Positions 12,537-63,910 of a stretch of DNA of 64,000 bases are shown here, piece by piece. Each line of letters opens with the position of its first letter. Position 1 is the first letter of the stretch. The notes beneath the pieces are model-generated. The model was not told where the DNA came from. It worked only from the letters and a program-made list of their open reading frames with translations, and searched no databases. The position numbers and the translations under genes are program-made. This stretch comes from Xanthostigma xanthostigma (lineage: Eukaryota > Arthropoda > Insecta > Raphidioptera > Raphidiidae): NCBI GenBank assembly GCA_963575645.1, contig OY754466.1:10332001-10396000 (forward strand), read 5' to 3'.

Positions 12537-12880
12537 TTGTGATTTCTGATTGGTCATCACGATAAGACACAACCGAGGAAAGACACTGCCATTATTGGAG
12601 CTTTTGACGATTTACCCAACTCGGAAAGCATTTCTCATTTAGAAAGAGACAACGAGTTAAAGACGAGAGAGCACAGGTTCCAGATTTCTGATTGGTCGTC
12701 GGGATAAGTCACAACCTGAGGAAAGACACTGGGACTATTGGCGCTCTTCCAAGCCGTGATGATGCATCTGTAATGTTTGCGAAACGTCGACAAAAATGTC
12801 TTAACGGATGCGGCTCCAACCCGGACACCGCTTCTCATTTAGAAAGAGAGAACGAGTTAAAGAAGAGAGAGCAGAGGCTC
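12537..12880 (+). repeat. Tandem duplication with a Penelope-type tail
   Basis: Two direct units start GATTTCTGATTGGTC (about 12541 and 12683) and end in similar AGAAAGAGA-AACGAGTTAAAG blocks. The second unit contains GTGATGATGCATCTGTAATG, then TTGCGAAACGTCGAC and AACCCGGACACCG, which the first lacks. That insert matches the GAAACGT core seen in other palindromes of this window. Confidence 0.6.
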
Positions 12881-13149
12881 TAAGTGACGTTACAGTTTAT
12901 GTTCAACAATACATCATATCGAAATGAAGTCTACATACACCGAGTTCTCTCTGTGTAGGCTCTGTATGCGTGTTTAATAAATAGGTAATTTTAAAATATT
13001 TGACCTGAGAGAGAAGACGAGTATTCTAGAGTTGTAGGCACGGCATATGGTAAATTCACATAAGAGCTCATCCTTTGCACTTAATGTGTTCAATAAATTT
13101 ATGCAACGATCACGGACTTTAGTAAATATTAGCGGTTTGCCTGCGACTT

Positions 13150-13500
13150 CGTCCGCCTGGTATATTGTAGCCAATTGAATTCTTTTATTTGAAAACCATC
13201 CCCACCCCGTTTAGGTAGTGTGTTTAAAAGACCGTCGAACGTGTATTTCTTATTTTCTAAGAAGAGTATTTTATCCCAAGTCTCCCATTTTTAGCTTAAG
13301 CGATTTCAAAACTTTATGAAGGTTTCCACCCCACGTTTCACTCCCTTAAGAGTTATTTTCGGGATAAAATGTAGCCTAGATCACTCTTGGCATGGCCTTT
13401 TTTCCTGTCTGTGAAGTACCGTCTCTATCGGTTCACCCGTTTTGAGGATCAGCTCGCACAGACAGACAGACACTTCAATTTTATTTATATGCATCTAATA
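13150..13500 (+). mobile_element. LINE-like 3' tail
   Basis: It reads like the 3' region of an insect non-LTR element: a TCGGTTCACCCGTTTTGAGG-type phrase is followed by GCACAGACAGACAGACAC and an AT-rich end. No coding remnant was seen. Confidence 0.4.
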
Positions 13501-13547
13501 TTGCGATGATTAAACGGTGCTTGACTGTACTTGTTAAATTCAATTAA

Positions 13548-14056
13548 GGTAGTACGAGCACCAAGGCAATTTTAAATAAAAGGCTTGATTTTTTTTTATA
13601 TGAAGTTGGAGTAAGTTTAAACCAATTCTGATAATTTTAGAGCGGTTGCCCGATTATTTAAATAAATAAATGACTTCAAAAGTAGGCATATTTAACATTG
13701 GCTTTATGGTAAAACGGTAGAATGATGATATGTTTTCATCGATTTCTCCAAAACTAGTCGGTGGAAATTAAAAAAAAAACTATTTAAATTAAAGTTAAAA
13801 CCTTAATAAATTATTAAAAACAAAAAAAAAAGTTGTGCCCGACTAATTAAAAAGATATTTAATTAAAAAGATTAAATATCTTTTTAATTAGTAGTCGGGC
13901 ACAACGGGTTTTTTTGTTTTCAATAATTTATTAAGGTTTGAACTTTAAATTAAATAGTTTTTTTTAATTTCCACCGATTAGTTTGGAGAATCCATGAAAA
14001 CATATCATCCATCTACCGAAATATAAAAAAAATCATGCCTTGGTACTCGTACTACC
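13548..14056. mobile_element. Palindromic element flanked by TTAA
   Basis: The terminal repeats GGTAGTACGAGCACCAAGGC and their complement lie between TTAA at 13544-13547 and 14057-14060. The inner arms share GTTGTGCCCGACTAATTAAA, so nearly the whole 509 bases fold back. It is non-coding. TTAA duplications suit piggyBac-like elements, but the ends lack the usual CCC start. Confidence 0.75.
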
Positions 14057-14439
14057 TTAAATTGATATCTTAACCGCGATTATGATCAACGTACAGATTA
14101 GGAAGGTGGTCAAATTTTGTGAGCATAACAGCAATTTTGATATCGATCGCGTTAGAAAAACATGTTTTTTTAATTTAGCTAAACAACAAATGCTTGTGGC
14201 TAGATATTACTTTAGGAGTAAAATGTTGCTGTTATAATGCTATAAACTTTAAATTTTTTGAAAAATTAAAGAAACTAAATTAAACAGTGAAGATATTTTT
14301 GAAATAACTCGGTTGTACTATTGGCCAATCTTTTCGACACTTCCATTGAATGATTTATAATTTGGTAACACAAACACTTCACTAAATGTAAATATTTGTA
14401 ATGGAATCACGTAATTGTAGAAAATAAGATCGGAACTTG

Positions 14440-14700
14440 TCGGACGGGACCTCTGCTTCTAATGGATTCATATTTGTACAATATGATGAATGTTGCAAGC
14501 ACCTGGTGGCGTGGCGGGTGGATCTCCTTAGGGAAAGACGGAATGCCAGAGGTGATGAGGTGGTTCGGTATCGGTGGGACGGTACGACGTCGGAGAGGAT
14601 CTGATGCATACCGTGAAACGCTTGACGTGTTGCCATACCGTCGGGATGGAGCATCACCGTCATAGCACAGGCACAGCTGCCAGAATATGTGCGATAACAG
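14440..14700. other. GC-richer island, unknown
   Basis: This stretch is clearly richer in G and C than its surroundings. It is open on both strands, with a 67-residue frame on + (14462-14665) and one on - (14382-14663). Neither translation matches a family I know, and no splice signals frame an exon. It may be a fragment of a captured gene or of a transposon coding region. Confidence 0.35.
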
Positions 14701-14811
14701 CCCTTGATTCTTTTATTTCAAACTGGTTTATGTTTTAAAAAAATGTCAGAAAATCTGAGTTAACAGCAAACACTAAACTTAAATTGTCATCAAATATAAT
14801 TACATTGAATA

Positions 14812-15460
14812 AAAAATTCCAGCCAATTGGGCGACGGGACCATGCCAACTTCAAAAATGTTGACATTTGATTATAATAAAGAAAATAAAATTTCTGATAT
14901 CGCGTGAGGTGACGCGGGTAATGGCTAGTATTCAATATGATATTAACTATTCGTTGCCATGGTTGCCTAGATAGTATGTTCCACGTCATGTAAAAATTAA
15001 TCAAAGCATCCTGACAAGTTTATTTCTGACAGATCCATAAAACAAAAGAGCGGATGATTTTTCTTTATTTTCAAAATATTTCCGAAACTATAAAGTTTAG
15101 AAAAAAATTTGTTTAACACAACTTTCTTGAAAAAATAAATAGTATAATAATCCGTTATGAAAAATATACCATTATTATATAAAAAACACGTTTTGGCATA
15201 TATCTCTTCTGCGCATCCGCCGATTTTCCCTAAAAACAACAGGGCTTTTCATATTTGCATACCAAACATCCTCCCAAAATTTGGTTTCAATCTGTTCATC
15301 CGTTTGACCTGTATCGTGATCACAGACAAACAGACTCACAGAGTTTTTTTCCAAAAATATGTTTTTTGGACTCGGGGGACTTCAAAACGAAAAGATATTG
15401 GAAATTTTGAAAATGATTTTAGGCCTAATCTAGTACCAATCTAGTGGGTTGGATTGGTAA
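14812..15460 (+). mobile_element. Repeat family J, full-length copy 1
   Basis: It begins CCAGCCAATTGGGCGACGGG, passes TTGCATACCAAACATCCTCC and ends near AGTGGGTTGGATTGGTAAAA. Copies lie at 32225-32885 (+) and 37930-38458 (-), with a fragment at 1195. No inverted termini, poly-A tail or ORF are evident. The constant ends make a mobile repeat certain, but its class is not clear. Confidence 0.7.
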
Positions 15461-16605
15461 AAAGAGATCGTCCACTACGAAAAATTAAAATTCTACTCAC
15501 GTCGACTATACACACACATCCATACGTACAACGTACACACCCACATCCATACGCCATTGATGCAGAGGAATAGTAGTCCAAACCGCAGCGTGTCGTTATG
15601 TCTTTTCGTCGTACGTTCAATCACATGAATCGGAATCACTATATCGTGGGTAAGGAAAATTAAAAAAAAGAGAGTGCCTGTGTAAAAACCACACAGTTAC
15701 TAAAAACAATGCAAACAGTTGAATATAAGCGTCATATATCTATAGGATAATTTATTACAACAGAGGAAACGCCGTTCATTTTTTTTTACTGCCATCTGTT
15801 ATCGGGTAAACAAAATCCTCTGTACTAATATTCTTTTTTGTCACCCACTTTCATCACGCCTTTCACATTTCCGATCGGAATCACTTCTACCTATCGCGCC
15901 TAAAGAAAATCAATTACAAAATTCCACCCGGATAGACATACAAGAAAGCAGGTTATTAAAAAGTGGTAAAATCATATACTTTTATTCTCTACTGAGCATA
16001 GGAATAAAATCGCAATCGAACCATTAGGGTGCAAACATATACTTCTGTCTTTTTTTACGCCGTAAGCACTGGCGTATCCAGGAGGGCAAAACAAGCACGG
16101 GGGACCCGGCTTAAGAAATTTTTAATTTGATCCCTCCTAGGCCAAAATCTGGGTACGCCCATGTTAACGTCATAGAAAAAGACAAAGTTTTTGAAACAGT
16201 GATACTTTATTCAGAGTGAATGCAAGTACATCAACCAATCCTATCATCGGAGAAATCAGGGAACTACATCGAAGAAATAGACGCAGATATATTTTCGATA
16301 CGCTTTGTTGCCTTCGCTCACCGCACATTGAGTAGATAGACAATGATTCATATAGTAAATTATAAAATATGTTTTCGTATGAGAAAATATGTGCGGTCAC
16401 ACTCTACTTTTAAGGTTATTGTCAAATAAGATATTTTAACAATGGTTTCTTCCATCAGGCCTCGGCTTATTCAAATGCCACCTTTTTTCAATTACTTCCA
16501 AGGATGAACTCATAGATGGCGCTGAAACTTCTATATATGCCTTTTTTAGCATTGGCCCTTTTGTGAACCGTCTCCTCTATTCAATCTTCTTTACTTAGTA
16601 AGTAA
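15461..16605. other. No recognisable feature
   Basis: AT-rich sequence with a small CACACACATCCATAC repeat near 15510-15555. No exon or transposon end could be supported. Confidence 0.4.
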
Positions 16606-16609
16606 GTAA

Positions 16610-16855
16610 AGGCCGCTGCAGACGATGCTAGTTTTGCCGCTGAAATCGTTGCTAGGACGTTGCTCTGGCTGGCGCGCTAACTGCGAAGATGGAAATGCCG
16701 TCACTGCGGGCTCGCTTGCGTGGTCACAAGATGAATTTCAAAATTAGAACCGGGGCTATTATTCGTGCTTGTTTGTCTGCTTGTTTTGAGCAAGAGCCAG
16801 TATATCTTGTCACATGTGCGACAAACAAACGTGACGTCATGGTATGTGTTCTATT
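16610..16855 (+). mobile_element. Harbinger MITE family H1, 3'-truncated copy
   Basis: It starts AGGCCGCTGCAGACGATGCT after TAA and carries the family interior (GCCGTCACTGCGGGCTCGC; GAGCAAGAGCCAGTATATCT). It stops where Penelope-like sequence begins. Confidence 0.7.
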
Positions 16856-16859
16856 GCAG

Positions 16860-17325
16860 ATTTTTCGATGTATCAGAGCACAAGAGAAGTTGTAGAATGG
16901 GACACATCGAAAAATCTGCAATAGCTGAGCGTACGTTGACTCTAGACAACCGTAAGATCATTTTTGAAGAAACCAAAGTTATAGACAGAACATCGAGTTA
17001 CTACCCACGCATATACAGAGAGGCCATAGAAATACACAAACACAAATAATTTCAACCGCAAAGACGAAAGTTTGACTCTAAATAAAACCTGGACACTAGC
17101 ACTGTGCAATACCAACCCACTGAATGGAATGATTAATCACAGAAGAGCATACTACGACCGAGTAGAGAACACGAGCACGTTGACTATAAAAGGCGGAAGT
17201 GCCACACTTGTCGACACACTTACCTGTGAGCAGCCTAGAAGGACACTTCGCCCGCTACCACATCGCCTTTCTACCGCAGTTGTAAACGAAACGGCACACA
17301 AACCCGGAAACCAAAAATAATTATT
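16860..17325 (+). pseudogene. Penelope-like element, C-terminal fragment and 3' tail
   Basis: The translated region contains SAIAERTLTLDNRKIIFEET, then YYPRIYREAIEIHKH and NNFNRKDESLTLNKTW. This is the arrangement that follows the GIY-YIG endonuclease in Penelope-like retroelements (an xRxxREAIEIxxHxNNxNRxDG pattern, then W). Downstream sequence to 17325 includes AAACGAAACGGCACAC and AACCCGGAAACC, like the tail at 12820. The fragment is broken and lacks the reverse transcriptase. Confidence 0.65.
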
Positions 17326-17334
17326 CCTTTAGTT

Positions 17335-17721: not shown

Positions 17722-17733
17722 AATAATAATAAT

Positions 17734-18076
17734 AATTTTCAATAATTATGAATAACGGGAATGCGGACACATAGGTATAATTCTTTTTTTTTATTGCTTA
17801 CGTTTCGTCAAAAATATTGACTTTGTCAAAGCTGTGAAAATATGGATATAACAAAATTATTAATTACAAAACAAATTTAAATAAAAATTATAAAAAATAT
17901 GCATTACCAAAAAATTATATATTTTTTATAATTTTTATTTAAATTTGTTTTGTAATTAATAATTTTGTTATATCCATATGTTCAGAGCTTTGACAAAATC
18001 AATATTTTTGACGAAACGTAAGCAATAAAAGAAAAGAATTATACCTATGTGTCCGTTATTCATAATTATTGAAAAT
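17734..18076. repeat. Foldback repeat with GAAACGTAAGC core
   Basis: Arms of about 150 bases run from ATTTTCAATAATTATGAATA to its complement. Each arm carries ATTTTTGACGAAACGTAAGC facing inward. On the strand of the core a hairpin (GTCAA...TTGAC) immediately precedes GAAACGT. It is non-coding and probably belongs with the GAAACGT palindromes listed elsewhere. Confidence 0.7.
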
Positions 18077-18099
18077 AAATACTACGGACTTTAAATGGA

Positions 18100-18100
18100 A

Positions 18101-18131
<31 letters not shown>

Positions 18132-18440: not shown

Positions 18441-18497
18441 CCTACCCACACTACTCTAGGTAAATATCACACCCACATATAATTATACGGCGTCTTA

Positions 18498-19460: not shown

Positions 19461-19479
19461 TTAAGTGGAAGTTAACAGT

Positions 19480-20755: not shown

Positions 20756-20758
20756 TTG

Positions 20759-20876: not shown

Positions 20877-20879
20877 AGA

Positions 20880-22080: not shown

Positions 22081-22084
22081 TATA

Positions 22085-38458: not shown

Positions 38459-38545
38459 AGCAGAGTTGCTTCTTACCAGTCTTGCTCGTTGATGGACAAA
38501 TGGAAATTACGAAACGTCAAAGCAGACAACGACTTGCAAGAAATT
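38459..38545 (+). mobile_element. Possible Penelope-type terminal fragment
   Basis: GTTGATGGACAAATGG, then AAATTACGAAACGTCAAAG is another occurrence of GATG, a short spacer and GAAACGTC. It directly abuts repeat J. It is only a fragment and no arms were found. Confidence 0.35.
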
Positions 38546-41530: not shown

Positions 41531-41547
41531 CCATCAAAAATATAAAC

Positions 41548-41920
41548 TAAAATAAGACACCTTGGTATTTTGTTATGATGAAATTAACGGGATACAAGGC
41601 TAAATATAAAAACAATTTTTATTCACTAGAACTTCATTAAATCTTAAAATTTTTACAAAGTAAGGATATATTGTTATAATTTTTTTAAAATAGATCTTTT
41701 AAAGTTTTTATTATTTTTATGAAGTTTTTTTTTTTAAAAAAGTTTTTAAATGCTGGACAGTAATGTTTTTAAATTATTTTATGGGTTTAATGTTGTGACG
41801 TTTTACTAGACATTTTTAAGGTCCTGAAGAAGACAATAATTTTTGCCGAAACGTTGACATTAAATGAAGTTCTAGTGAATAAAAATTGTTTTTATATTTA
41901 GCCTTGTATCCCGTTAATTT
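41548..41920. repeat. Foldback repeat with CTGAAGA ... GAAACGTT core
   Basis: Arms of about 70 bases share GGGATACAAGGCTAAATATA and CACTAGAACTTCATTAA. The right arm is preceded by CTGAAGAAGACAATAATTTT, then TGCCGAAACGTTGAC. Direct repeats close to CATCAAAAATATAAAC flank the element at about 41532-41547 and 41921-41938. That flank is longer than DNA-transposon target duplications and suits retro-type insertion. Confidence 0.65.
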
Positions 41921-42019
41921 CATCAAAAAATATAAACGTGAAAAAGGGAGCCTAGTTCAATATTCAATACAAAAGAATTGAGATCTAAAAAGGTTTTCAT
42001 TTGGCAAGTGTTCGTGTTT

Positions 42020-42560
42020 TATATTATGTAAGCTGTCCCGCCCGGTTTCACTCGGGGTCAAAAGAACGAATAGGGGGAGGGACATGAGTACGCACATTCA
42101 TCTTAGTTTACCGAGATGAATGTTGTGTCCAAATTTCATGATGACCGGAGTTACCGTTCAAAAGCTTTTGTCGATAAAAAGCAGTATTTATAGATACTTT
42201 TATAAACTAATATTTTTTTTTTAATTAATTAAATAAAATGAAAATTTTAAATGTAAGCCTTAGAAGAAAGAAATGTAGAAAATAAAAAAAAAATAAAAAT
42301 ATTTTCGCCCAAGGTGGGGCTCGAACCCACGATCCTGATATTGACAGTCGCATGCTCTACCGATTGAGCCATCCAACGTTGTGTACTCACAACGCTATTT
42401 TGAGTATATTAAGTTAGTGCATTTCACCTGAATAGAAGCTTATTTTTGAGATACATTTTGCAACATTTTTCATTAATGCTCCGCTCCTGATGGTCGTAGC
42501 GTAATATAATATAGCCTTCCTCGATAAATGGGCTACCCAACAAAAAAAAAATCTTTTCAA
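42020..42560 (-). mobile_element. Helitron/RTE-like repeat carrying a tRNA-Lys-type insert, copy 1
   Basis: On the minus strand: GATAGCCC-like text, GGAGCGGAGCATTAATGAAA, the tRNA-like part, an A/T-rich stretch with TTCTTTCTTCTAAGG, then TGTTGTGTCC-type text and an end near GGGCGGGACAGCT. Copy 2 at 57340-57985 has the same order. The copy at 22430-22762 lacks the tRNA segment. Confidence 0.65.
42306..42377 (-). pseudogene. tRNA-Lys-derived sequence
   Basis: GGCTCAATCGGTAGAGCATG and GGATCGTGGGTTCGAGCCCC are nearly those of insect tRNA-Lys(CTT). The T arm pairs perfectly and both promoter boxes look good. The anticodon has become GTC and the acceptor arms no longer pair. It lies inside a mobile repeat. 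Confidence 0.6.
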
Positions 42561-43703: not shown

Positions 43704-46700
43704 GTGAGTCAGTTTTATTGCTTTTTGTAACTATATGCGTTGACATAAAAGAGAAAGTTCCTTTACTTTTTATGTTCACCTGTTCTCTCTTTCTCTCGGT
43801 CTCTTTCTGGGAAATAACTCCATACAAAATAACGGTAAAGTCTAAAGCTTAACAAGAAAAACATTCATGTTCTTATTTTAAAATAATCCAGATTTATTTA
43901 TAAAGCTGGAAAAAAATTACATTTTACTTATATTTACATCGTTTCAGCGAAATTTTAATACGTATAAGTAGTATATTATTCAGTCCTTGGAGGACTCTTT
44001 TGAAATTTAAGTAATATGATATTTGAATAGATTTAAAAAAATGTAGGTAAACAATTTTATTGAAAAAAATATATATATATCTAATATTTTTGTAATACCG
44101 CCAAAGGTCAAAAGGGCTGTATAAAAACACAAAAAGAAAAATGTATTTTTTCAAAATAAAACTCTAATTTTTAAAAATTAACATTTTATTTTATTGGAAG
44201 ATTTAAAAGTAAGAATCCTGGTGGCATAGGATCGATGAAACAAAGCAAATACCTACTGAAGGTTTTTATTGCATTTTATTGTCTGACGTTTCGGCAATCT
44301 TTATGCCATCTTCGGAAAATCAATGCTGTCTGTTTTCTCAGTATTGTTGTTATGTATAAAATAAATTAAAATATAAAATGTCATCAAAAGGTATTAAAAT
44401 TACTATTTTTCTTAAAAAACGACTTGATTTTTACTAAAAACTGTATAAATGTGTCTATACTCTATGTTACTTGTTTAAAATCATACTAATTTTTATACCT
44501 TTTATATTTTAATTTATTTTATACATAACAACAATACTAAGAAAACAGAAAGTATTGCTCCGAAGATGACATAAAGATTGCCGAAACGTCAGACAATAAA
44601 ATGCAATAAAAGCTTTAGTATTTGCTTTGTTTCATCGATCCTATGCCATCAGGATTCTTCCTTTTTAATCTTCAAACATTGAAACATCACTCTAAATTAT
44701 TAGAGTTATTTTTCACAATTTTATTTTATGTGAATGATCCATAGAGAGTTGCTTACACTAGCCGTAAGTGAAAGTGTTCTCAGTTAAGAGAGAGAACGCT
44801 GCAGAAAAACAAAAATTTGTTTACTCAAATCAGCATTGTTTTGCATCGTTAGTTACCATAGAGATAAGGAACTGTTCTTTCGCTTAATTGCACACACTTT
44901 GCTCTCTCGCGTAATCTATTGTAATATCTCTATGGAATGATCCGTTATGCAATAATCAAACATTGTCGAAATCTTGGTTTGTTTTTGGACAATCTCGATT
45001 ATTTTGTCAAATTTGGCTGAAATCGATTATTCCAATCGAGCTTTACTTAAAAATAAGTCTTTTAAGCCTAATGCAAGTTTTTGTTATTAACAAATAAGTG
45101 TTTAAAAATCACCAGACCTTCAAAGATTTTAATTTTAATAATATATTGTTAAGAGTAAACTCTACCCAACGCTCTCTTTTACTCAAATGCCTTCTCTCTT
45201 TCCTCTTAAGTTTTGTAGATAGTTGATATGTCCCACTAATATGCGACACTTGATATATTAATTTATTAATTATCAACTTATTGAAGATGTAACGAGAAAA
45301 TGAAAATATTTTTTTAAATTTTGCGGTATTAATACTTAATTTTACAAACTAAGCTTCCATATTGTTGATCAATATAAATACTATAAATATAGTGCGAGAG
45401 CATATCTGTCAAACTTTGCACATTTTTATAGCAGTAAAAATGCATGAAAATGTAAAAACTTATTTTGTGACGTCAGATCGCATTACATCAAAAAATAATA
45501 TAAAAAAAATATAGATACGTATCACATTTGACAGCTCATGTTCTTTTTATGGATACATACCTAGCTATTTTATCTTTAAAATTCGAGTTTTCATTTCTCT
45601 GTTTCAAAATTCTGATAATAATCGTCACCTCGAAATGAAACGGAATAAGCTGAATATTTGTATAAACGTTTATTTTGGCATTCTAAATGCTGTCTCATAA
45701 GATCACGTGTGAGCGTCCTTAGATATTCAAAGTCAAAGGTCACGAAAATCACTTTTTGACAAATAACTTGTTTCCTTTGCCTCAAATTGTATTTGTAATT
45801 ATTATAAAATTTGTAGAGTATAAAACTCTCTACAAATTTCGTCTTAAATAATTTTTTATACGTTTTACTGTTTTTGAGATAGAGCGCTCAGCCATATACA
45901 TGCCATAGCGCAAAAGGTCAATTGTAAATCCCAGTCCATAGTACGGTTTTTTAACTTAATTATTCGTTAAATACTAGTTAATTAACTATTTAATCAAATA
46001 ATCATTTAATATTACTTACTTCTTTCATATAAATAATAAGTGAATTATTTCAAATATATTTTAATAATACTCTTATTAAGAATAATAATTTGTATTTTAA
46101 GTAGGAAAGAAATTAAGAAAATATTTTAAAAAATTATTTAAGACGAAATTTGTAGAGAATTTTATACTCTACAACTTTTATAATAAATGCAAATACGATT
46201 TGAGGCAAAGGAAGCTAGATATTTCCAAAAAAACTGATTTTCGCGACCTTTGACCTTGAATTTCCAAGGACGCTCACTCGTGGTCTTATGAGACTTTTGA
46301 GATAACATTTAGAATGCCAAAATAAAGGTTTATAGTTTATACAAATTTTCAGCTTATTCCGTTTCATTCCGAGGTTGTCCCCTTTTTTAGCTTATTTGAC
46401 TGCACTATAACTATTTTAGACGTGAATGTATGTCAAAATTGTATAATATAACAGAAAAAGCGTAAGAGCGGTGTAAAAAAGGGGAGTGAAGCGTCTCCAG
46501 CGAAAAATTCAAGTGGTAGAAAGTCATCATCGGGTACTGCAAATGACAGCAATGTCGAAGAAGAAGTGGTTGAAACACAGATTGCGCAAGCTGAACAAGG
46601 AGAATCGAACCAAGTAGACGACGGAGATAGATGTGAGACCACTGTTGCCAACGGTGTCGAGAAACAACCAGAGACAGAAGTAAAACCGCAAGCTACGGCA

Positions 46701-52700: not shown

Positions 52701-55700
52701 TTTAATTATTTACTGTAAAAAAATATGTAAAGTACAGATATTTACATAAATTTATTTTTTTTAACCTAACTTTGTACAAAAAATTTAAAAGTTAGAAATA
52801 ATTAATAAATATTAAAAAAAAATATTTATTTATGCTTTCATGGCAATAATATTATTGGTATCATCGACTTATAACCTTTTGTAAAAAATTATTATGGAAA
52901 AGTGCCCATTTAGAATTCAACTTACTTTTGAATGGGACTGTAACGGATCAACCTCCTTAAATCCGACTAAATGATCTGGTTTATTTAGTTTTTATTTTAG
53001 ATACTAAATTTGAAGATATTGAAATTTCAAAATGCCACGTTTCTCGTTTCAAATCCTACAAGTTAAAAAAAATATTTTATACTTTTTAGTTCGTTTTAAA
53101 AACGTGGTATATTAATTTTTTTTTAATTTGTTATATAATTTTCTTCTTTTTACTTATAGACCAGTGAAGTTAGCTTTTGACAAGGACAAAATTAATAACA
53201 GAAAACGAATGATGAGGAAGGGAAGAAACTGCCGTCATAAATACAGAAACGAAAAATTCAAATGCCTAAAAGGCCGGAGGGCTGTGGGGGGCGCGTTTTA
53301 GGGGTCAAACGAGGTTTTTCGTTATTTCCGGCGAAAGCTGACCTCCAATCGAAAAATGTTGTGTGGCAATGTTGTAGGTAAAAGGATCTACAACTTTTAT
53401 AAATATAATTTTTTCACATAACCTTCAGAGAAATATCGAAAAAACCGTGTTTTTCGTTTTTAATTTTTTTCTCCTGCAAAAATGATTTTTCATTCATGAA
53501 ATTTTCAGGAGACTTACCTTTCTATGTCTTTAACAAGCTGTTAATCATTCATAAAAGGGGAATTCAATGTTACATTAACAAATGTATTACACCATCTGAA
53601 AGTAGACATTTTAACGAAGAAAACTCCATACTACGATTTTTGAAAATCTGAAATTTTTACGTTACTTTTTTAGGTTGAAGTTAGGGGTAATTTTTTTCGG
53701 TTTTTTGTTAACATTAAATTGGCAAATTAATTTTTTTATTCGAAAAAATTACAGCTTATTTAAGACATAGAAAGGTAAGTCTCCTGAAAATTTCATGAAA
53801 AAAAAAATCAATTTTGCAGGAGAAAAAAATAAATAACGAAAAATATGGTTTTTTCGATATTTCTCTGAATCTTTGAGGTTATGTGAAAAAATTATATTCA
53901 TAAAAGTTGTAGATCCTTTTAATATCTACAACATTGCCACACAACATTTTTCGATTGGAGGTCAACTTTCGCCGAAAATAACGAAAAACCTCGTTTGACC
54001 CCTAAAACGTGCCCCCCACAGCCCTCCGGCTTCTTACGCATTTGAATTTTTGGTTTCTGTATTTCTGACGGCAGTCTCTTCCCTTCCTCATCATTCGTTT
54101 TCTGTTATTAATTTTGTCCCTTTTTCACTTGATTTTGGGCTAACTGTATTGGTCTATTAATAAAAACGTGGAAAAACAAAAATACATCGTAAAAAAATAA
54201 AAATTTTATATGGGCCATGGTAGTCGAACTCGCGACCTTCGCGATATTAGCACGACGCTCTAACCAACTGAGCTACGACCAATGATTGCAAGATGTCGTA
54301 CAACGGTAAATAACTAACAATGAATTATATATATTTATTAAAATTTCTTTATTTCTTTTATTATTTTCTTCTTTATTTTCACGTATTATCATTTAATTCT
54401 GAGTTATGTTAAAAATTTCAAGTCTCTATCTCATCAGAAAGTTAGTTTAAAATGAATTACAAAGTTCCGCCCGATACACACGAAAATCAAGTTAATATAA
54501 ACGTGGTAATTAACGAAATCAACTGGTTGATGTGGCACACGTTACGGTGTCGTTACGTCAATGATTTACCACTATTGTAGAGCAAAATTTTATTTCATTA
54601 AAATGCTTCTACTTGGTTATGCAAGACATATCCGACTAATATCAATAAAATATTTTTCTAGCATGTAACTGTTGATTTATGGTGTAGCCACCGGTTGTTA
54701 TTTTTTTGTTATTGCGCTACGTTACCCGCTTGCAATATGATTTCGTAGCGTTTCCGTATTTTATTCTATTACTTCAGATTTCTATTATTAAATACCGTAT
54801 TGCTTTCACTTAAAATCATTTGATTTACATAGAAATTCGTTTTTAGTCTAGACTATGCTTTCAGGAAGTTCAGTAATACTAATACTTGGATATTAAATAT
54901 TAGAATTATTTGTGTTTTATTGATGACCAGGTTATGATTGTATCAGGGCTCGAGAATAGTCGAACGAGTAGAGATGCCGTTTTTTTATATAAGGTCTTTA
55001 TGACTTCTCTATTACAAGCCCTCAGTAAAATAACATACCTAATGCAATTTTGAGGTCAACAATTTAATTACTAGGTATAACTTTTTATGTAGCTATGTAG
55101 GTACTTCAATTATTATTTTGGCGTCGACCTTAAAATTTTATTATTTTACGCTTTTTACTAGCCTTTTTTGAAAGAGATTCAACTTTTTTGAAACTTTATT
55201 TTTTAGGGAGTAATTATAATACGTTTTTGGTACGGTACTAATCGCCTTCTTCTTTAACCGATTTAATTAAAATTTATGTAGAACGACTCTAACGGTATAT
55301 GCTCTACAGAAAATGAACCGTCAAAATCGGTCATCTAATGCTAGAGTTATGAGGTAACCTGGTAACATATATAAAAAAACATTATTTTTTGAAGACAGTT
55401 AAAAACGACTTAACCGATTTAGAAAAAAATATATGGGACTATTCTGTAAGTTTTCTGAATAAACTTGCGTCGAATTATTTTAAATCAATTAACCTTTGAA
55501 AAATTTATGGCTGAACGAACAAAAATATACATTTAGAATTGATAACCTCTTTTTTAATTAAAAAAAAACTAATACCGGGTTGCAGAAAGGTTTGTCAAAA
55601 AATTTGATTTGACAATTATCTTAATCATATAATAATTACAGTTTCCATGCATCAGGAGCAGTCTAAAGGCCGCTGCACACGAGGCTAGAAACGCTGCTAA

Positions 55701-58700: not shown

Positions 58701-61223
58701 AAAGAAAACCTTTTGTCAGATTTTTATTGAAGTTCTCGTAATGTCTTTGCTAGTACATATAATGATAAGGTACGATTTTCTGTCTTAAGGCCGCTGCACA
58801 CGAGGCTAGAAACGCTACTAGGAGTTCTGCTAGCCGGTAGGCTGGATACGAAGCTGGAAATGACGTCACTGCGGGATCGTCTGCTAGCTCACAAGATAGG
58901 TTTTGAAATTAGAACAGGGGCTATTTTCCTTGCTAGGTCCGCTGCTAGGTATGGGTAAGAACCAATCAAGAGACAGATTCTTGTCACGTGGGCGACTTGA
59001 ACAAACGCCCACAAACCAACATGGCACCATTCTGCTCAGATGCTCTGTGTTTATATTTGAACTATCATTGCGCGCGCATCAGATTTATTCACAAAACAGC
59101 TTGAAAATAAGTCTCGTGTGAAGCGAGCACATAACAGCAATCAAGAAAATCAGCACTAGAAAACTAGTAGGCAAATTTAGCATGGAATCTAGCAGCGTTT
59201 TTAGCCTCGTGTGCAGCGGCCTTTAATTGCTATTATGTGCTCGCTTCACACGAGACGTCTTTAAAAGCTTGCTCTGCAGGTAGATTCGGTATGAGCTAGC
59301 AGTGACATTATTTCCAGCTTCGTGTCTGTAAACACAGTAGCTAATCTATAGTAAATGATGTTTAAATTGCAAGTTTATTTTCATATTTCATTATCTGCAA
59401 TCGGTACAAATCGTTAAACTCGATAATGCTAATATATAAATGCGAAGAAAACTGTCAGGAAAAATAAAACTTTTAATGGTCCATTATTTTCAAAGTATAT
59501 TCAAAATTTTCTTTTATTGAAGACATTACGAACTTTATATAGAAAGCATTGTTACTCATGCATATAATATTTTTATATCTTATAGATCGTTACAAAAATT
59601 CGTTAACTTTAAATGCTTACTTTATTACCATATTTGAGATGTGGCACGTACATTATTGGTCGGATGGTGGGACCTCTTTAAAATATTAGTATTCGAAACC
59701 CAAAGGAATGGTGAGACCTCTGGTGAGAAATGCGCCGAACTGTCCTAAGGGGGGTTTTTGACAGGTAAACTATGTAGGCATAAGGTAAACATTGATTTAG
59801 AAGAGTATGATGGAGACTAACCTAAGCTTTTCTAAATCAATGTTTACAAATTTAAATGCGCCGAACTGTCCTAAGGGGGGTTTTTGACAGGTGATTTAGA
59901 AAAGCATGATGAAGGCGAACCTAGCCTCCATCATGCTTTTCTAAATCAATGTTTACCTTATGCCTCCATAGTTTACCTGTCAAAAACTCCCCTTAGGACA
60001 GTTCGGCGCATTTATCACCAGAAGTGTCACCATTCCTTTGGGTTCCGAATAGATTTTTAATTGTATTCCAAATTACCAACAGTATCTCAAATACCATATG
60101 AAGGGTACACGGGAAGAAGGCGGTTTGTCAAAAAATGTAAATTGTACAGGAGAGCATTTTGAAGTGTTTAAGATCGTACCATTTACTTGCTGATGCATTT
60201 CTTTCAACGCTTATAACTTTTGACCTAGCGTATTCTTGTCTACAATGAATACACCAACAGAAAGGTACGACTTTTGACTACAAGATAAAAAAAATAATTT
60301 CGAATTTTTACTGAAAAAAAGCCTTCTTCACGTGTACCCTTCATATTCACTTTTTCGAAGTGTGAGCAGGCAGTAGGTATTCTTGTTTTGATAAAATTCA
60401 TTTTTTTCTTGTATGAAAATATGAAACTGATAATACTAAATATAAGATGTTTAAGTGAATCATATTTTAAAATATACGGGGTAACTGGTAATTGTTCGTA
60501 TTCCTTTAGGGAGAAGAAACTCATTTTGAATGATTAAACCTCTATCTAGGGATTCAAGAAAATCTGTTTCTGTTTTCTTTTTACAAAAATTCGAATTTTA
60601 GTTAATTGTGACTTTTTGGTCTGAATTTTTCCATGATCTGATAGCTTATTAATTGGCCAACCTTCCTAAAGCTAAAAACCACGAAATTTATTGTTAGATT
60701 TTATGTTGTGTGTTAAAACTTACAATAAATAAAAAAAGTAAAATAAAAATTCTTCTCAAAAGTGTTATTATCATAAAAAATGACGCATTTCCGACCCCCA
60801 AGTGATAAAGTTAAATCATTCCAAATTAGTCGTAGTTTCTTCTCCCGAGAGGAATACGAGCAATTACCGGTCACCCTATATAATATCTACTATAAAACAT
60901 TTCAAGATAGTATTAAGTTTCGAAACGAAGCACCAAAGTTGTAAATAAAAGTTTATTTCATTTGTGTTTGATGTGTTATGTAGTATGTATATTGGCAATA
61001 CTTGTTTGCTGACATTGTTTTGTTCTGATGCGCTTTCCACAGGATTCGTCACGATTTAATGACGTGGGGGGATCGATTCACTGCCAAAGAGGTGGATGTC
61101 GCATTGGAGGACGCCCCAGTGTACATCAATAAAGGAAAAGCTATGATTGATTACGTAAAGTTCTGTAAAGCTCTGTGCGGATTACGCAAGAAACCCAAAG
61201 TGTCACCTTCAGGAGAGCTTTAA
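43644..61223 (+). CDS. Regulatory myosin light chain-like EF-hand protein (gene span, five coding exons)
   Basis: Joining 43644-43703, 46455-46838, 47627-47749, 47833-47969 and 61043-61223 gives 294 residues. Residues 1 to about 140 are a Lys-rich, then Glu/Gln/Thr/Pro/Ala-rich, probably disordered extension. Residues 141-294 align end to end with regulatory myosin light chains: LKEAFFLFDLNNDGIIDRND holds the family's EF loop 1 (residues 154-165, D-x-N-x-D-G-x-I-D-x-x-D), then NPLDFDAFV, LDPEETLLDALSRWD and TWGDRFTAKEVD. Such chains bind the myosin heavy-chain neck and tune contraction. The usual myosin-kinase site (R-x-x-S just before the core) is not evident. Of the later EF loops, the one after LSRWD is degenerate (DYNNSGLISEER), so calcium probably binds only at loop 1. 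All junctions are GT-AG. It is a divergent member, not a plain Mlc2 or spaghetti-squash chain. Confidence 0.85.
44197..44673. repeat. Foldback repeat with CCGAAGATG ... GAAACGTC core
   Basis: Arms of about 190 bases share AAGAATCCTG, ATAGGATCGATGAAACAAAG, CAATCTTTATGCCATCTTCG and AATTTATTTTATACATAACA with their complements. Each arm carries the hairpin-plus-GAAACGTCAGAC core; the left arm's hairpin is perfect (GGCA...TGCC). It is non-coding and lies in intron 1. Confidence 0.75.
45622..46380. repeat. Large inverted repeat (about 760 bp) in intron 1
   Basis: Arms of about 250 bases begin CACCTCGAAATGAAACGGAA and end in its relative complement CCGTTTCATTCCGAGGTTG. They share TTTATTTTGGCATTCTAAAT and ATTTGTAGAGTATAAAACTC-like blocks. 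The arms have drifted apart, so the element is old. There is no ORF apart from arm-specific chance frames. Confidence 0.75.
46455..46838 (+). CDS. Myosin light chain-like gene, exon 2
   Basis: It encodes residues 21-148. The first part is basic (KKRKSGVKKGSEASPAKNSS). The middle is acidic and Gln/Thr-rich with ETEVKPQATAVASHQNEQQT, then a Pro/Ala piece (IPAAPKEMYKAPPAATKK). The end DISLLSDIDEKKLLELKE is the helix before EF-hand 1. An in-frame TAA lies just before the CAG acceptor, which supports the exon start; the donor is GAG|GTAAGA. Codon use and the long open frame agree with coding. Confidence 0.85.
46839..47626. other. Intron 2 of the light-chain gene
   Basis: This 788-base intron has donor GTAAGA and acceptor GATTCCGTAG. 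It contains an A-rich tract at about 47505-47548 next to a tRNA T-arm-like AGGTTTGAGTCCTGATGG (minus strand), possibly a SINE relic. Confidence 0.65.
47627..47749 (+). CDS. Myosin light chain-like gene, exon 3 (EF-hand 1)
   Basis: It encodes residues 149-189, AFFLFDLNNDGIIDRNDLIL, then TYQTLGQNNIPEEDIQKMLSE. The loop DLNNDGIIDRND has oxygen ligands at positions 1, 3, 5, 9 and 12, with Asp rather than Glu at 12, as in regulatory light chains. Both junctions are in phase 0, with donor GAG|GTAAAA. Confidence 0.9.
47750..47832. other. Intron 3 of the light-chain gene
   Basis: A compact 83-base intron with donor GTAAAA and a pyrimidine-rich acceptor (CCGTATTTTTAG). Confidence 0.8.
47833..47969 (+). 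CDS. Myosin light chain-like gene, exon 4
   Basis: It encodes residues 190-234 and two bases of codon 235: APNPLDFDAFVVLLGYKTIE, then LDPEETLLDALSRWDYNNSG and LISEE. This matches the EF-2/EF-3 span of regulatory light chains (xPxNFxxFLxxF ... DPEDxxxxAFxxFD). The donor CG|GTAAGT gives phase 2 and is strong. Confidence 0.9.
48277..48806 (-). mobile_element. Mariner-type MITE (family M1), copy 2
   Basis: The terminal repeats CAGTATGTAAACACGTAAGG, then GTGCACATAGGGAAATTAGC, are flanked by TA at 48275-48276 and 48807-48808. It is reversed relative to 23905-24455 and shares ATCTCCGCCTATTCGTGTTG with it. Confidence 0.85.
48830..50830. other. Unassigned intronic AT-rich sequence
   Basis: Several phrases (TACAGTAGGGTGTCCGTTAT near 49508; AGAACGCTCTACAAAAAGGT near 49750) look like repeat interiors. 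No paired ends could be found, and no exon signal. Confidence 0.35.
50850..51252 (+). mobile_element. Helitron- or RTE-like repeat ending GCTAGT
   Basis: It runs from CACGCGATAAACTCAAAAAC to CACCCGGGTGAAACCGGGCC, then GGGCCGCTAGT. It shares AGCTCAAAGCTATTAGTTCA and AAATACATTTTGCAGAATT-like text with 17335-17721. The hairpin-like CCGGGTGAAACCGG before CTAGT fits a Helitron 3' end. Confidence 0.55.
51267..51573. mobile_element. Harbinger-type MITE with TTA duplication
   Basis: The terminal repeats GGGACCATTCATTAATTACG and the near complement TACGTAATTAACGAATGATC lie between TTA at 51264-51266 and 51574-51576. It is 307 bases and non-coding. It landed 15 bases after the end of the preceding repeat. 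Confidence 0.85.
51577..52258. other. No recognisable feature (intronic)
   Basis: A GA-rich tract lies at 51628-51675 (GAGAGAGAAAGGGAGAGGGA). Otherwise it is ordinary AT-rich intron sequence. Confidence 0.4.
52263..52956. mobile_element. Inverted-repeat element flanked by TTAA
   Basis: GGAGGTTGAGCCGTTTTAC faces GTAACGGATCAACCTCC. TTAA lies on each side (52259-52262 and 52957-52960). The interior is very AT-rich and non-coding. Like 13548-14056, the TTAA suggests piggyBac-type mobilisation, but this is inference. Confidence 0.65.
53157..54156. mobile_element. 1000-bp foldback element with TTA duplication
   Basis: The ends TAGACCAGTGAAGTTAGC and TAGACCAATACAGTTAGC (other strand) lie between TTA at 53154-53156 and 54157-54159. 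The arms of about 400 bases share AACGAATGATGAGGAAGGGA, ATTTTTCGATTGGAGGTCA and AAGGTAAGTCTCCTGAAAAT with their complements. The TTA duplication suits Harbinger, but the very long arms are unusual for it. No transposase remains. Confidence 0.8.
54211..54283 (-). pseudogene. tRNA-Ile(AAT)-like sequence, copy 2
   Basis: TAGCTCAGTTGGTTAGAGCG, then TCGTGCTAATATCGCGAAGG matches insect tRNA-Ile(AAT) through the D and anticodon arms. The T stem is broken (GAGTTCGACTACCATGG), with the same kind of change as at 40652, so both descend from one mobile ancestor. Confidence 0.65.
54511..55664. other. No recognisable feature (intronic)
   Basis: AT-rich sequence. TTAACCGATTTAATTAAAATT-style phrases near 55255 and 55405 hint at decayed repeat sequence. 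Nothing firm. Confidence 0.35.
55667..56080 (-). mobile_element. Harbinger MITE family H1, reversed copy
   Basis: AGGCCGCTGCACACGAGGCT begins after TAA at 55664-55666. The interior is the reverse complement of 58788-59222. The far terminal repeat stops after AGCGTTTCTAGCCTCGTG, so that end is shortened. Confidence 0.8.
56081..56485. other. No recognisable feature (intronic)
   Basis: AT-rich intron sequence; nothing could be supported. Confidence 0.4.
56490..56560 (+). mobile_element. Fragment of a repeat widespread in Lepidoptera
   Basis: AACAGGCCAAGTGCGAGTCG, then GACTCGCGCAACGAGGGGTT and CCGTAC is, from memory, nearly identical to a motif found in very many lepidopteran genomes. Only about 70 bases can be recognised here. 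The class is unclear to me. Confidence 0.5.
56820..57002. repeat. Degenerate short tandem repeat (CTAGTTTGKCC-type)
   Basis: Units such as ACTAGTTCAGCTTACGC, AACTGGTTTGTCC, GACCAGTTTGGCCTAGGC and AACTAGTTTGGTCTAGGC recur every 15-30 bases, partly inverted. It ends at the hAT-like terminus at 57003. Confidence 0.55.
57003..57290 (+). mobile_element. hAT-type element fragment
   Basis: CAGGGGTCGGCAACCTGCGG, then CTCGCGAGTCGCATGCGGCT and GTTGCGGCTC is the style of a hAT terminal and subterminal region. The matching right terminus was not found before the next insertion. Confidence 0.5.
57327..58037 (-). mobile_element. Helitron/RTE-like repeat carrying a tRNA-Lys(CTT)-type insert, copy 2
   Basis: It is colinear with 42020-42560 (GCGCTAATCTCAGAAACTAC; GCGGAACATAAATGAAAAAT; tRNA; TTCTTCTAAGGTTTACATTT; TGAATGTGCGTACTCGTGTC, all on the minus strand). 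A 38-base direct repeat flanks the interval at 57289-57326 and 58038-58075 (core AGAAGGGTTAAGAGTAATTA), with two mismatches. That is far longer than usual target duplications. Confidence 0.6.
57667..57738 (-). pseudogene. tRNA-Lys(CTT)-like sequence
   Basis: GCCCGGATAGCTCAGTCGGT, then GACTCTTAATGC and GGTTCAAGCCCCACG closely follow insect tRNA-Lys(CTT), and the CTT anticodon is intact. The T stem is weakened and the acceptor 3' strand has lost pairs, so function is doubtful. It sits inside the mobile repeat. Confidence 0.6.
58076..58784. other. No recognisable feature (intronic)
   Basis: AT-rich sequence. The open frame at about 58321-58527 is hydrophobic but unlike a known protein, and no splice sites frame it. 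Confidence 0.35.
58788..59222 (+). mobile_element. Harbinger MITE family H1, most intact copy
   Basis: 435 bases with terminal repeats of about 35 bases (AGGCCGCTGCACACGAGGCT, then AGAAACGCTACTAG) and TTA at 58785-58787 and 59223-59225. The inside includes TGACGTCACTGCGGGATCGT and CTCACAAGATAGG. It has no coding capacity and serves here as the reference copy of the family. A short reversed relic follows at 59226-59335. Confidence 0.9.
59226..59335 (-). mobile_element. Harbinger MITE family H1, reversed relic
   Basis: ATTATGTGCTCGCTTCACAC, then GAGACGTCTTTAAAAGCTTG and CAGTGACATTATTTCCAGCT correspond to inner parts of the family read backwards, joined with an internal gap. Confidence 0.6.
59336..59690. 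other. No gene; short piece of repeat K
   Basis: AT-rich intron sequence. At 59645-59680 GGTCGGATGGTGGGACCT is a fragment of repeat family K. Confidence 0.4.
59691..60050. mobile_element. Foldback MITE, family A copy 3, internally duplicated
   Basis: The outer ends ATTCGAAACCCAAAGGAATG and CATTCCTTTGGGTTCCGAAT are as in the other copies. Inside, the GCGCCGAACTGTCCTAAG block appears twice in the left half and once, complemented, in the right. One family member has therefore inserted into or recombined with another. Confidence 0.75.
60099..60343. mobile_element. Mariner-type MITE (245 bp)
   Basis: TGAAGGGTACACGGGAAGAA faces TTCTTCACGTGTACCCTTCA, and TA flanks each end (60097-60098 and 60344-60345). 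It is non-coding. Confidence 0.75.
60477..60877 (-). mobile_element. MITE family G, copy 2
   Basis: The outer ends (GGGTAACTGGTAATTG and, on the other strand, GGGTGACCGGTAATTG) and inner CTCGGGAGAAGAAACTACGA-type arms match 36405-36838 in the opposite orientation. TA lies at both borders. Confidence 0.75.
61043..61223 (+). CDS. Myosin light chain-like gene, exon 5 (terminal)
   Basis: It completes codon 235 (CG|G, Arg) and encodes IRHDLMTWGDRFTAKEVDVA, then LEDAPVYINKGKAMIDYVKF and CKALCGLRKKPKVSPSGEL before TAA. TWGDRFTAKEVD matches the TMGDRFTxEEVD hallmark of regulatory light chains, and IDYVKF the final EF-hand helix. The basic Ser/Pro tail replaces the acidic or short tails of ordinary family members. 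The acceptor is TTTCCACAG. Confidence 0.92.
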
Positions 61224-61390
61224 GCATCATTTATTATATTGCTGTTTAAGTTTGGCGCAGAAATACACTAAATTTTAAAGTCTTATAGTATATAAAACAC
61301 ATTTTGCATCTTATAATATATTATGTAATATAATTGTAATTAAAATTGATTTTGTCCTTGATAGTAAATAAATAGTAGGATAATGATAAC
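61224..61390 (+). other. 3' untranslated region of the light-chain gene
   Basis: AT-rich sequence from the TAA stop to just past the AATAAA signal. Its end is set by that signal and by the start of a mobile element at 61400. Confidence 0.55.
61367..61372 (+). terminator. Polyadenylation signal AATAAA
   Basis: The canonical hexamer lies 144 bases after the stop codon, at a usual distance for an insect 3' end. The mRNA should end some 15-25 bases further on. Confidence 0.6.
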
Positions 61391-61399
61391 TTGGACTTA

Positions 61400-61969
61400 T
61401 GCCCATATTCACCGAACACTATTAAAGATAGAAGCTACTACTCTTGGAACTAATTTATTCGTTAGAATAAAATTTACTTTCTATTCACCAAGAAAATTAT
61501 AGTTAGTTGAAGAATAAATACTACACTACTTGCTCTTTTTGTTGAATAAATTGACGTTCACCTAAAAATCCGACCGATGGCGTTAGTGTAAACGTCAAAA
61601 AAAGTTTCACAAAATAATAATGTTTTATCCTAACCCAATGGCACACAAAACCTCCACTAACTTTAATGTTTTGATGCTATATACTTCACAAAAGGTTAAT
61701 AAACAACACATAAATAAATTCACAAGAGCAACTGTAGATATAATACTTCATGTTTATAGGTTAGGTATTATGATCTATGTAGCGGCCATTATTATTTGAT
61801 CAGGTGAATAAATATTTATACCCTTGAAGTAAACAATAGATTTATACCTATAGTAAACATAATTAGGTATGTACTCTGAATTGAATTATCGCTATTTATT
61901 CGGAGGAACAACTACCTGAAGAACAAATAAACCGAATAAATAACTACTTACGTTCGGTGAATATGGCCA
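61400..61969. mobile_element. Harbinger-type MITE with TTA duplication
   Basis: TGCCCATATTCACCGAAC faces GTTCGGTGAATATGGCCA. TTA lies at 61397-61399 and 61970-61972. The interior includes TGAAGAATAAATACTACACT and CTGAAGAACAAATAAACCGA as inexact inner repeats. It is non-coding and sits right at the 3' end of the gene. Confidence 0.8.
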
Positions 61970-61973
61970 TTAA

Positions 61974-62080
61974 TAAAGTAAATGTTTAATTTTACAAGGC
62001 AACGTTTCGTAGACTGCCTGATGAAGTAGATAAACAGTTCACGAAACGTTGGTTTGTAAAATTTAGCACTTTCTTTATTT
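61974..62080. repeat. Small foldback with CTGATGA ... GAAACGTT core
   Basis: The arms (AATAAAGTAAATG, TTTTACAAGGCAACGTTTCG and complements) pair across a centre. The centre reads CTGCCTGATGAAGTAGATAA, then ACAGTTCACGAAACGTTGG. The hairpin here is weak. It abuts the preceding Harbinger element. Confidence 0.6.
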
Positions 62081-62384
62081 AGTCCAACTTCCTAATAATC
62101 TCACTATTTATTGAAATATATAGGTAATTAAATTTCTGTGGAACTAAGCTACAACTAATAAATTTTTACAGATATATATGTTTGTGTATTTATTTCCTTT
62201 TATTAAAATGTGTTAATTACAAAGATGCGAAGAGAACTGAAATAGTACTTTTGTATCTCGTTCGTAAATGAAAGCATTATACGAGGAATCGATATGTTAA
62301 GACGAACGACCAACCACACAGTTTACAAATGCGCATTTTTTACGTCTGTCACTAAACGTGAATGTTGGTAAAATACTAAAATTG

Positions 62385-62690
62385 TAACAATTATTATTAT
62401 TTAATTCAGCATAATATTTATTAACGTAAGTTTGTAAAAATGAATATTATTTAATTTAACATATTTATTAACGTAAGTTTGTTACATGAATATTATTTAA
62501 TTCAACATATTTATTAACGTAACTTTGTAACATGAATATTATTTAATTCAACACATTTATTAATTTAAGTTTTTTAACATGAACACTACTTCCTAGAGTT
62601 CATACGCTCCGCTGCCATCTTGCCTCTGTTTCTCTACATGACCGCCAGGGTACACCAGTGGCGGCGTGGCTTTTTAAGACGTGGAGTTCC
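62385..62690 (+). repeat. Dispersed repeat with internal minisatellite, long copy
   Basis: Four tandem units of about 50 bases (each with TATTTATTAACGTAAGTTTG or a close form) lead to TGCCATCTTGCCTCTG, then CCAGTGGCGGCGTGGCTTTT. The same end follows two units at 25005-25190. Confidence 0.7.
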
Positions 62691-63262
62691 AAATTTATAT
62701 AAATCCATCTTTAAAAGACAAATATTTTTGCACGAGCCCTTATAAAATAGCTGCTTTTCATGCCTATTTAGTGGTTGTAAAAAGATCCTTTTCCACACTA
62801 GTGCGTAAAATAAAATAAAATAAATTCGATTTTACAAATCTAATAGTCTCTGTCAGTTACCATTTAAATTCACATGAGCAACAAAGACAAGCATAGTAGG
62901 CGTTGCCATCGTAAACAGTCCACATATAACTCTGAACTGTCAAAAATATTACAAATATACTCATTATGATGTGAAAATCAGCTATTTTATAGAAGGTACG
63001 TGCCAAAAATGTAGTATGTATGTCGACTGTAATGTTTTTATGAATCGTGTGACTGTTAAAACTTGCTAATCGCTCGTTATTACCTCAGTATCACACTAGT
63101 ACATAAAACGACGCATAACAATCTCGATATATAAACTAGTATTATGTAAATGTGACACTAAACAGTTTTATACCATGCAAACAGTTTCTACTTCGCTATA
63201 GACGTGTTATTTCGCCTCTACACTCGGATTTCTTTGCTTCTATCCTCCTTATCAGTATATTT
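62691..63262. other. No recognisable feature
   Basis: AT-rich sequence downstream of the gene; nothing could be supported. Confidence 0.4.
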
Positions 63263-63265
63263 GCC

Positions 63266-63910
63266 TGTACATAGTTATATGGCACATAAACTATTGACGT
63301 CAGTCGGATGGTGAGGCCTAGGGGCTAGCCTAAAAATCTCGCCTGAAAAATTTCACACAAATTTATGAAATGAAACTTTTGTTATAGCGCGATTACTCTC
63401 AAAAAATATAATCGATTTAAACTAAATTTGAAACACATGCTAAAATTTATTACCACAGTGCGATCATTTTTAGGGTTGTATTTAGTGATTGAAAAAAATT
63501 GGCCCAAAAACGCTGAGAAAATTTGTGGAATTGTTTAGAAATCTAGACTTATCCGTTTACATCAAAAATAAATGTTCAATAAATAAAATTATCGACCCAT
63601 TTTTTATACAATATATATTAACGAAAAAATATATAATTAATACATTAACGTTTCGATCCGGATTTGGATCTTCTTCAGAACTGATCTAAAAATCCGGATC
63701 GAAACGATAATGTATTAATTATATATTTTTTTGTTAATATATTGTCTGAAAAATTGGTCGAATATTTTATGTATTGAAGAGTTCTAATCAGACGTTAATC
63801 AAAGGTTTCAAAAACAAATGTGTCCATAAGATTTTTACACAATCGGACTCAAAAATTTTATGAAAGCACTAAAGTTTGAGGATAGGTATATTTAGTTTGA
63901 TGTATTAATT
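63266..63910 (+). repeat. Dispersed repeat family K, copy 2
   Basis: It begins around GTCAGTCGGATGGTGAGGCC and continues AATCGATTTAAACTAAATTT in the order seen at 10494-11160. A foldback at about 63600-63754 lies within it, absent from the first copy. Confidence 0.6.
63600..63754. repeat. Foldback repeat with CTGAAGA-GATCC hairpin-GAAACGTT core
   Basis: Arms of about 60 bases are built on AATATATTAACGAAAAAATA and TAATTAATACATTAACG. On the minus strand the centre reads TTCTGAAGAAGATCCAAATC, then CGGATCGAAACGTTAATG, with a perfect GATCC/GGATC stem. It is inserted in repeat K. Confidence 0.7.

Follow-up and report, generated by a model that had tools for sequence, protein, structure and literature searches.

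In a 64,000-nucleotide stretch of the snakefly Xanthostigma xanthostigma genome (assembly GCA_963575645.1, contig OY754466.1, positions 10,332,001 to 10,396,000; the window below), a short core recurs, mostly within palindromes, and we identify it with high confidence as a minimal type I hammerhead ribozyme motif carried in the pseudo-long terminal repeats (pLTRs) of Penelope-like elements (PLEs). The motif consists, in order, of the 5' strand of stem I, CUGANGA, one extra base, the stem II hairpin, GAAA, ACGU, H17 and the 3' strand of stem I. The CUGANGA...GAAA core is intact in the window at 41818, 62012 and 63641. An earlier, sequence-only reading of the window had suggested a hammerhead core, Penelope-like elements as its carrier and an RNA structure under selection; these suggestions were supported, the carrier through proteins in the commonest family only.

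The strict pattern CTGANGAN{6,30}GAAACG was found three times in the window (41824+, 62018+ and 63678-), against a mean of 0.08 in shuffled sequences, and none of 100 shuffles contained three or more. GAAACGT by itself was weakly enriched (19 occurrences, shuffle mean 10.6, one of 100 shuffles as high), and as it stands near chance alone, the information resides in the whole motif. In the 623-Mb genome the strict pattern gave 11,434 + 11,587 matches, and its reversed version 348 + 357. The genome average is thus one match per 27 kb, and with three matches in its 64 kb the window is in no way unusual. The sample analyzed further comprised 128 strict cores falling into 34 clusters: 100 cores from 74 stretches around the first-listed genome matches on contig C1, 24 cores from 20 places of the CTGAGGA list, picked by eye for differing loops, three cores in the window and one in its flanks.

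A covariance model (CM) was built on 21 genome copies, none of them from the window, and window sites were counted at E<0.01. Eight of the nine sites listed by the sequence-only reading were recovered, the one at 12757 (12750-12794) being marginal with E 0.003. The ninth, a supposed weaker form of the core at 38490, was rejected since the window search gave no CM match there even at E<=10. Two window families have relatives in the CM (L018 for one, L009 and L057 for the other), hence its best two sites, 41818 and 63641, are not wholly independent of it. Across 76 loci, 95 of the 101 CM matches had CUGANGA, a count that is not independent because most of these loci were chosen by that very pattern. 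In these 76 loci the strict pattern marked 101 sites, nine of which had no CM match at E<=0.05; one of the nine, L035_+1511, is a family member all the same, and the other eight (L010, L021_2856, L028_2452, L051, L052, L062, L067 and L075) are probable chance pattern matches.

Both stems were supported by covariation. Position 17 was unreadable in 5 of the 34 clusters; in the 29 left, with no filter on stem II, 69 of 87 stem I cells were paired (permutation mean 40.0, maximum 56, none of 20,000 permutations reaching the observed value). In the 23 clusters with at least three of four stem II pairs it was 61 of 69 cells (permutation mean 33.9, maximum 49). Stem I, earlier considered missing, is therefore present in most clusters and covarying. 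In the 34 unfiltered clusters 105 of 136 stem II cells were paired (permutation mean 65.5, maximum 86), and only 52 of 136 when the extra base ahead of the stem was not skipped. Stem II fitted better with this base in 27 clusters and without it in four, with a tie in three. The extra base had been taken as a ground for doubt, but it is a general feature of the motif. A viroid hammerhead core with an extra nucleotide has reportedly been published, to judge from a title in a reference list.

The covariation test on genome copies, named beforehand as a check that could refute the reading, gave significant covariation. It was run on 21 cluster representatives, with no window sequence among them, L038 having been excluded from 22 for its long loop. 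In stems I and II together 93.9% of cells were paired versus 52.8% after shuffling and 27-48% after partner slides, the stem II share being inflated because the representatives were pre-filtered for stem II (stem I was unfiltered). Two-sided changes occupied 64 cells versus 19.0 in shuffles, and the covariation score was 1.072 versus 0.225 shuffled and 0.10-0.21 in the slide controls. The hairpin replacements noticed at the outset (GATCC/GGATC, GGCA/TGCC, GTCAA/TTGAC and GCA/TGC) proved real and belong to different families. Three genome copies folded better than their shuffles (z -2.0 to -3.6).

The stem III segment was ACGU in 28 of the 34 clusters and ACGAUCGU in one, its ACG being imposed by the search pattern. 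As ACGU is its own palindrome, stem III is unable to close within one molecule. In one family (L025, L035 and L042) GAAACGAUCGUY replaces GAAACGUY, which makes the stem III palindrome 8 instead of 4 nt long; stem I CUC/GAG is retained in its representative, L025. In L096 (118-131) CTGAAGA runs straight into CTGAGGA ahead of a core, giving the look of a doubled core start.

The core nucleotides themselves vary in an ordered manner. Hammerheads follow the GUH rule, with no G at the cleavage position 17, and genome-wide only 210 cores (control 45) out of ~23,000 had G there. In a single pattern frame, also genome-wide, C3/G8 gave 18,233 matches (control 29) and U3/A8 6,254 (control 182); the single changes U3/G8 and C3/A8 gave 1,060 (control 47) and 712 (control 46), and G3/C8 remained at control level (52 versus 64). 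These counts, with an odds ratio of ~150 calculated by hand, show genome-wide covariation of the core pair, C3-G8 changing to U3-A8. The family of the 17764-18055 element had UUGACAA in all 23 pattern matches, though CTGACGA and both single changes were allowed, and kept stem I GCU/AGC with A or U at position 17 in the eight copies fetched. For the family of the 44194-44676 element (236 exact matches), 100 listed copies inspected by eye comprised 93 CCGAAGA (U4C), one CCGATGA, four TCGAAGA and two CTGAAGA; in one of the latter (L112) CU apparently came from the arm junction. The parts of PMC3088659 available to us report U3-A8 covariation in natural hammerheads, and U4C as considerably weaker in vitro and sufficient for a viroid in vivo. 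Hence, as far as that source goes, both family-wide core changes seen in the window are described natural variants.

The carrier was recognized in the commonest family, which contributed 50 of the 128 sampled cores. In L016 and L017 a GIY-YIG-like C-terminal frame ends ~190 nt ahead of a core on the same strand; L064 and L039 keep remnants of such frames, flanked in L039 by two direct pLTRs. A genome search with the GIY-YIG-like piece returned 2,870 candidates; among the 150 scored, at least seven matches lay inside open frames of 728-1249 aa, including 835 and 837 aa. The C6 copy, with the 835-aa frame, is composed of a pLTR, tail, open reading frame start, reverse transcriptase (RVT_1, E=5e-10, in L129), frame end and second pLTR; both pLTRs have an identical core, and the tail continues into the start of the reading frame. 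The C9 copy has a core in the 3' pLTR only, its 5' end being a truncated head-to-head junction. The cores of the commonest family sit in pLTRs of PLEs, and the PLE hallmarks observed were pLTRs, an inverted pLTR, a one-sided tail and target duplication.

Several results weigh against this identification. Scans of the window and of 10 short loci with the Rfam hammerhead models gave no match even at E<=10. The 41818 copy folded no better than its shuffles (z=+1.09), nor did the 63641 copy, in which stem II alone forms. Pairs showing any two-sided change were as numerous in the shuffles as in the alignment (5.8 versus 6), and the copy counts throughout are of non-independent events. About one-tenth of 100 listed U3/A8 matches were, by eye, out of register (two inside C3-G8 copies) or chance; the remaining ones were divided among several families defined by stem II. 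Stem I is poor in the commonest family, where the representative L009 pairs one of three positions. The best Pfam match of the GIY-YIG-like end, GIY-YIG itself, was below the cut-off (E=0.00066, 20.4 bits versus 22.6), and PLE proteins are tied to this family only, the other window families being filed by core and end structure. Finally, no shared flank of 10 nt was detected in 14 of the 32 head-to-head pairs described below. Separately, sub-threshold miRNA-type Rfam matches were discarded; by our reading, they fell mostly on palindromes.

Self-cleavage by the window's own copies seems doubtful, given how 41818 and 63641 fold and the U4C change in the family of the 44194-44676 element. The ribozyme fold might be a fossil, needed by ancestral PLEs, with the present families spreading without it. 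The size of the U4C family and the weak stem I of the commonest family fit such a view, and catalytic mutants of an Anolis PLE insert in vitro all the same (PMC11167929). The described natural occurrence of U4C and U3-A8, with U4C active enough for a viroid in vivo according to the part of PMC3088659 seen, speaks against it, as do stem I, stem II and C3-G8, which still covary between families. We regard the fossil explanation as unlikely.

The arrangement of the cores was informative about how the elements insert. The best repeat match of 104 cores was an inverted partner upstream in 65 cases and downstream in two, a direct repeat in five, and none in 32 (both arms were counted where both keep the core, and a few matches are short); the cores thus point outward. 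Both ends were scorable in 32 pairs from the two largest families, of which 29 had one short and one tailed end, one had two tails and two had none (binomial 1.3e-6 versus a coin toss; 28 of 31 with one row per locus). The scoring omits 18 rows without a partner end, enters L046 twice, and includes L071 as a borderline short end and L077 with the same flank on both sides. The short end lies 70-80 nt after GAAA and the tail end ~28 nt further. A shared flank of at least 10 nt was present in 18 of the 32 pairs versus 8 of 992 mismatched ones, with 13 as the most frequent length. The predominance of short/tail pairs speaks for two separate starts of reverse transcription rather than copying back, and such starts are the likely origin of the palindromes.

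Snap-back self-priming of one cDNA, or an antisense template, would also give palindromes; some junctions are indeed tight palindromes, and self-priming was proposed for the rotifer Penelope in the part of PMC3846280 seen. A copied-back arm should, however, repeat the end of the first arm, which the 29 short/tail pairs do not do, and arms may carry different variants. Among the matches listed for one family of 2,369 copies, a hand count gave 17 close minus/plus pairs, in three of which the arms differ at an A/C loop position (one being L077 with its odd flank). Mixing of the two main subfamilies between arms was observed in none of the 17 listed pairs, and different variants in two arms are only a lead as a sign of two templates. 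We consider self-priming quite improbable. That the cores are chance hammerhead-like hairpins in the ends of unrelated DNA transposons (miniature inverted-repeat or foldback elements), the palindromes being terminal inverted repeats, is hardly credible: the short length, the palindromes and the lack of recognizable coding sequence in most sampled elements would suit it, but stem I, stem II and C3-G8 covary, the GUH rule is obeyed, one-sided tails, 5' truncations and PLE frames adjoining cores are present, and core-bearing pLTRs around PLE frames refute the idea for the commonest family.

With two separate starts as the preferred reading, each palindrome would represent a single insertion. The PLE protein would cut both target strands, leaving the observed duplications of ~13 bp, and reverse transcription would begin at two points of the pLTR RNA, downstream of the ribozyme; two 5'-truncated copies would then be joined head to head. 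Stem III may form between two RNAs via the ACGU palindrome and, since it is possible only in this way, the RNA would have to dimerize or be assisted by a protein to cleave after GUH. Protein help has been published for the Anolis PLE (PMC11167929). It is a long shot that the palindromic stem III (ACGU or ACGAUCGU) acts as an RNA dimer contact, so that two pLTR RNAs held by the hammerhead each template one cut strand, one from the short and the other from the tail start; within this joint reading, a whole PLE lineage would have exchanged C3-G8 for U3-A8 in its ribozyme core. If true, short/tail head-to-head pairs, sometimes with different arm variants, would be the footprint of a dimeric template.

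The window holds five head-to-head insertions of different families (Table 1). Cores had been expected in palindromes, and this stood for the five loci; the site at 12750 has no palindrome and is enclosed by direct repeats (12541-12877, ~142 and 200 bp apart, 86-87% alike). Target duplications of 12 and 14 nt were found at both window elements checked, 41548-41925 and 63576-63807. For the former, 12 shared nt occurred in 0 of ~4000 random 24-nt flank pairs, and the element was filed as a putative PLE by its shared core and end structure; the latter matches the C6 pLTRs at 91-93% identity.

Table 1. Hammerhead cores, head-to-head pairs and target-site duplications in the window (positions of the window; E values from the CM).
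Feature	Position	Strand	Details
Marginal core-like site	12750..12794	+	G at position 3, no palindrome; E=0.003
Head-to-head pair (foldback), U3-A8 family	17764..18055		inverted repeat
Core UUGACAA (C3U + G8A)	17793..17835	-	stem I GCU/AGC, stem II GUCAA/UUGAC; E 3e-5
Core UUGACAA, second arm	17984..18026	+	first stem II pair lost; E 0.007
Left target-site duplication AAAAATATAAAC	41536..41547		exact 12-nt match to 41926-41937
Head-to-head pLTR pair	41548..41925		left arm tailed, right arm short (by eye versus L018); relatives L018, L073
Hammerhead core, intact CUGAAGA-A-stem II-GAAACGU-U	41818..41861	+	stem I GUC/GAC; E=1.5e-10
Right target-site duplication AAAAATATAAAC	41926..41937		pairs with 41536..41547
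Head-to-head pair, U4C family	44194..44676		81% arms; repeat comparison and family of 236 exact matches
Core CCGAAGA (U4C)	44279..44321	-	stem II GGCA/UGCC; E=4.3e-7
Core CCGAAGA (U4C), second arm	44554..44596	+	E=4.2e-5
Head-to-head pair	61972..62079		inverted repeat; 75% arms, left arm cut within core
Core, letters intact	62012..62056	+	stems I and II weakened (2/3 stem I pairs broken); E=4.7e-4
Left target-site duplication TCAAAAATAAATGT	63562..63575		13/14 versus 63808-63821; as good in 1 of ~4000 random pairs
Head-to-head pLTR pair, commonest family	63576..63807		+ arm tailed, - arm short
Hammerhead core, intact	63641..63684	-	stem II GATCC/GGATC, weak stem I (UU/AA, G-U); E=4.1e-10
Second core of the 63576..63807 pair, 5'-truncated	63683..63706	+	partial match, model 15-36; E=0.17
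Right target-site duplication TCAAAAACAAATGT	63808..63821		pairs with 63562..63575

Other features were noticed in the window. A large inverted repeat at 53184-54119 has 197-nt arms, 95% alike, with nested arms inside. The tRNA-like matches at 42314-42371 (minus strand, 30.3 bits) and 54216-54282 (minus strand, 26.2 bits, below the family cut-off) are probably tRNA-derived short interspersed nuclear elements. The plus-strand frames at 16735-17128 (GHIEKSAIAERTLT...YYPRIYREAIEIHKHK and NNFNRKDESLTLNKTW) presumably resemble a decayed PLE C terminus, a likeness that was not used as evidence; the first of them, 16735-17049, had no Pfam match.

Minimal hammerheads in PLEs were reportedly described by Cervera and De la Pena in 2014. 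With hammerheads in PLEs already published, the association itself is of a known kind; the scale (>20,000 matches), the U3-A8 lineage and the family-fixed U4C stand out. With so many natural hammerhead-like matches, spread over at least 23 clusters, evolution itself provides a measure of what the catalytic core tolerates (C3-G8 versus U3-A8, U4C). The paired short and tailed ends offer a sequence-level test of how PLEs prime the second strand, and curated RNA models missed an abundant motif in the stretches scanned.

In the excerpts of PMC6155905 and PMC7229834 at hand, the minimal hammerheads of PLEs have helices I and II, a missing or minimal helix III, a location in pLTRs and many copies in animals, and the motif described here resembles them in all these respects. 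Compared with those descriptions, which come from citing papers, the snakefly genome adds a U3-A8 lineage of large size, a family with U4C and, in one family, the 8-nt palindrome ACGAUCGU. The animal retrozymes, as far as PMC7229834 was available, likewise contain type I hammerheads, acting as dimers where helix III is weak, as in the axolotl; they belong to the retrozyme class and are arranged as short tandem repeats, unlike the inverted pLTR pairs and PLE proteins found here. Penelope of Adineta vaga shares the head-to-head inverted pLTRs, a one-sided tail (optional, 31 bp) and target duplications, which were of 8-10 bp in the cases seen in the part of PMC3846280 consulted; here, in contrast, the duplications are mostly of 13 bp, core matches exceed 20,000 and many sampled pLTR pairs have no coding sequence. 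Poseidon PAc of Anolis carolinensis also has a hammerhead in its pLTR; its reverse transcription starts at two sites, one at either boundary of the tail, and both target strands are cut and extended (PMC11167929). Its C3 and G8 precede a start codon at stem II, which we read as compatible with the same extra base. The start codon of PAc thus lies in stem II, whereas in the commonest snakefly family the first methionine, as judged from the sequence, is downstream of the tail.

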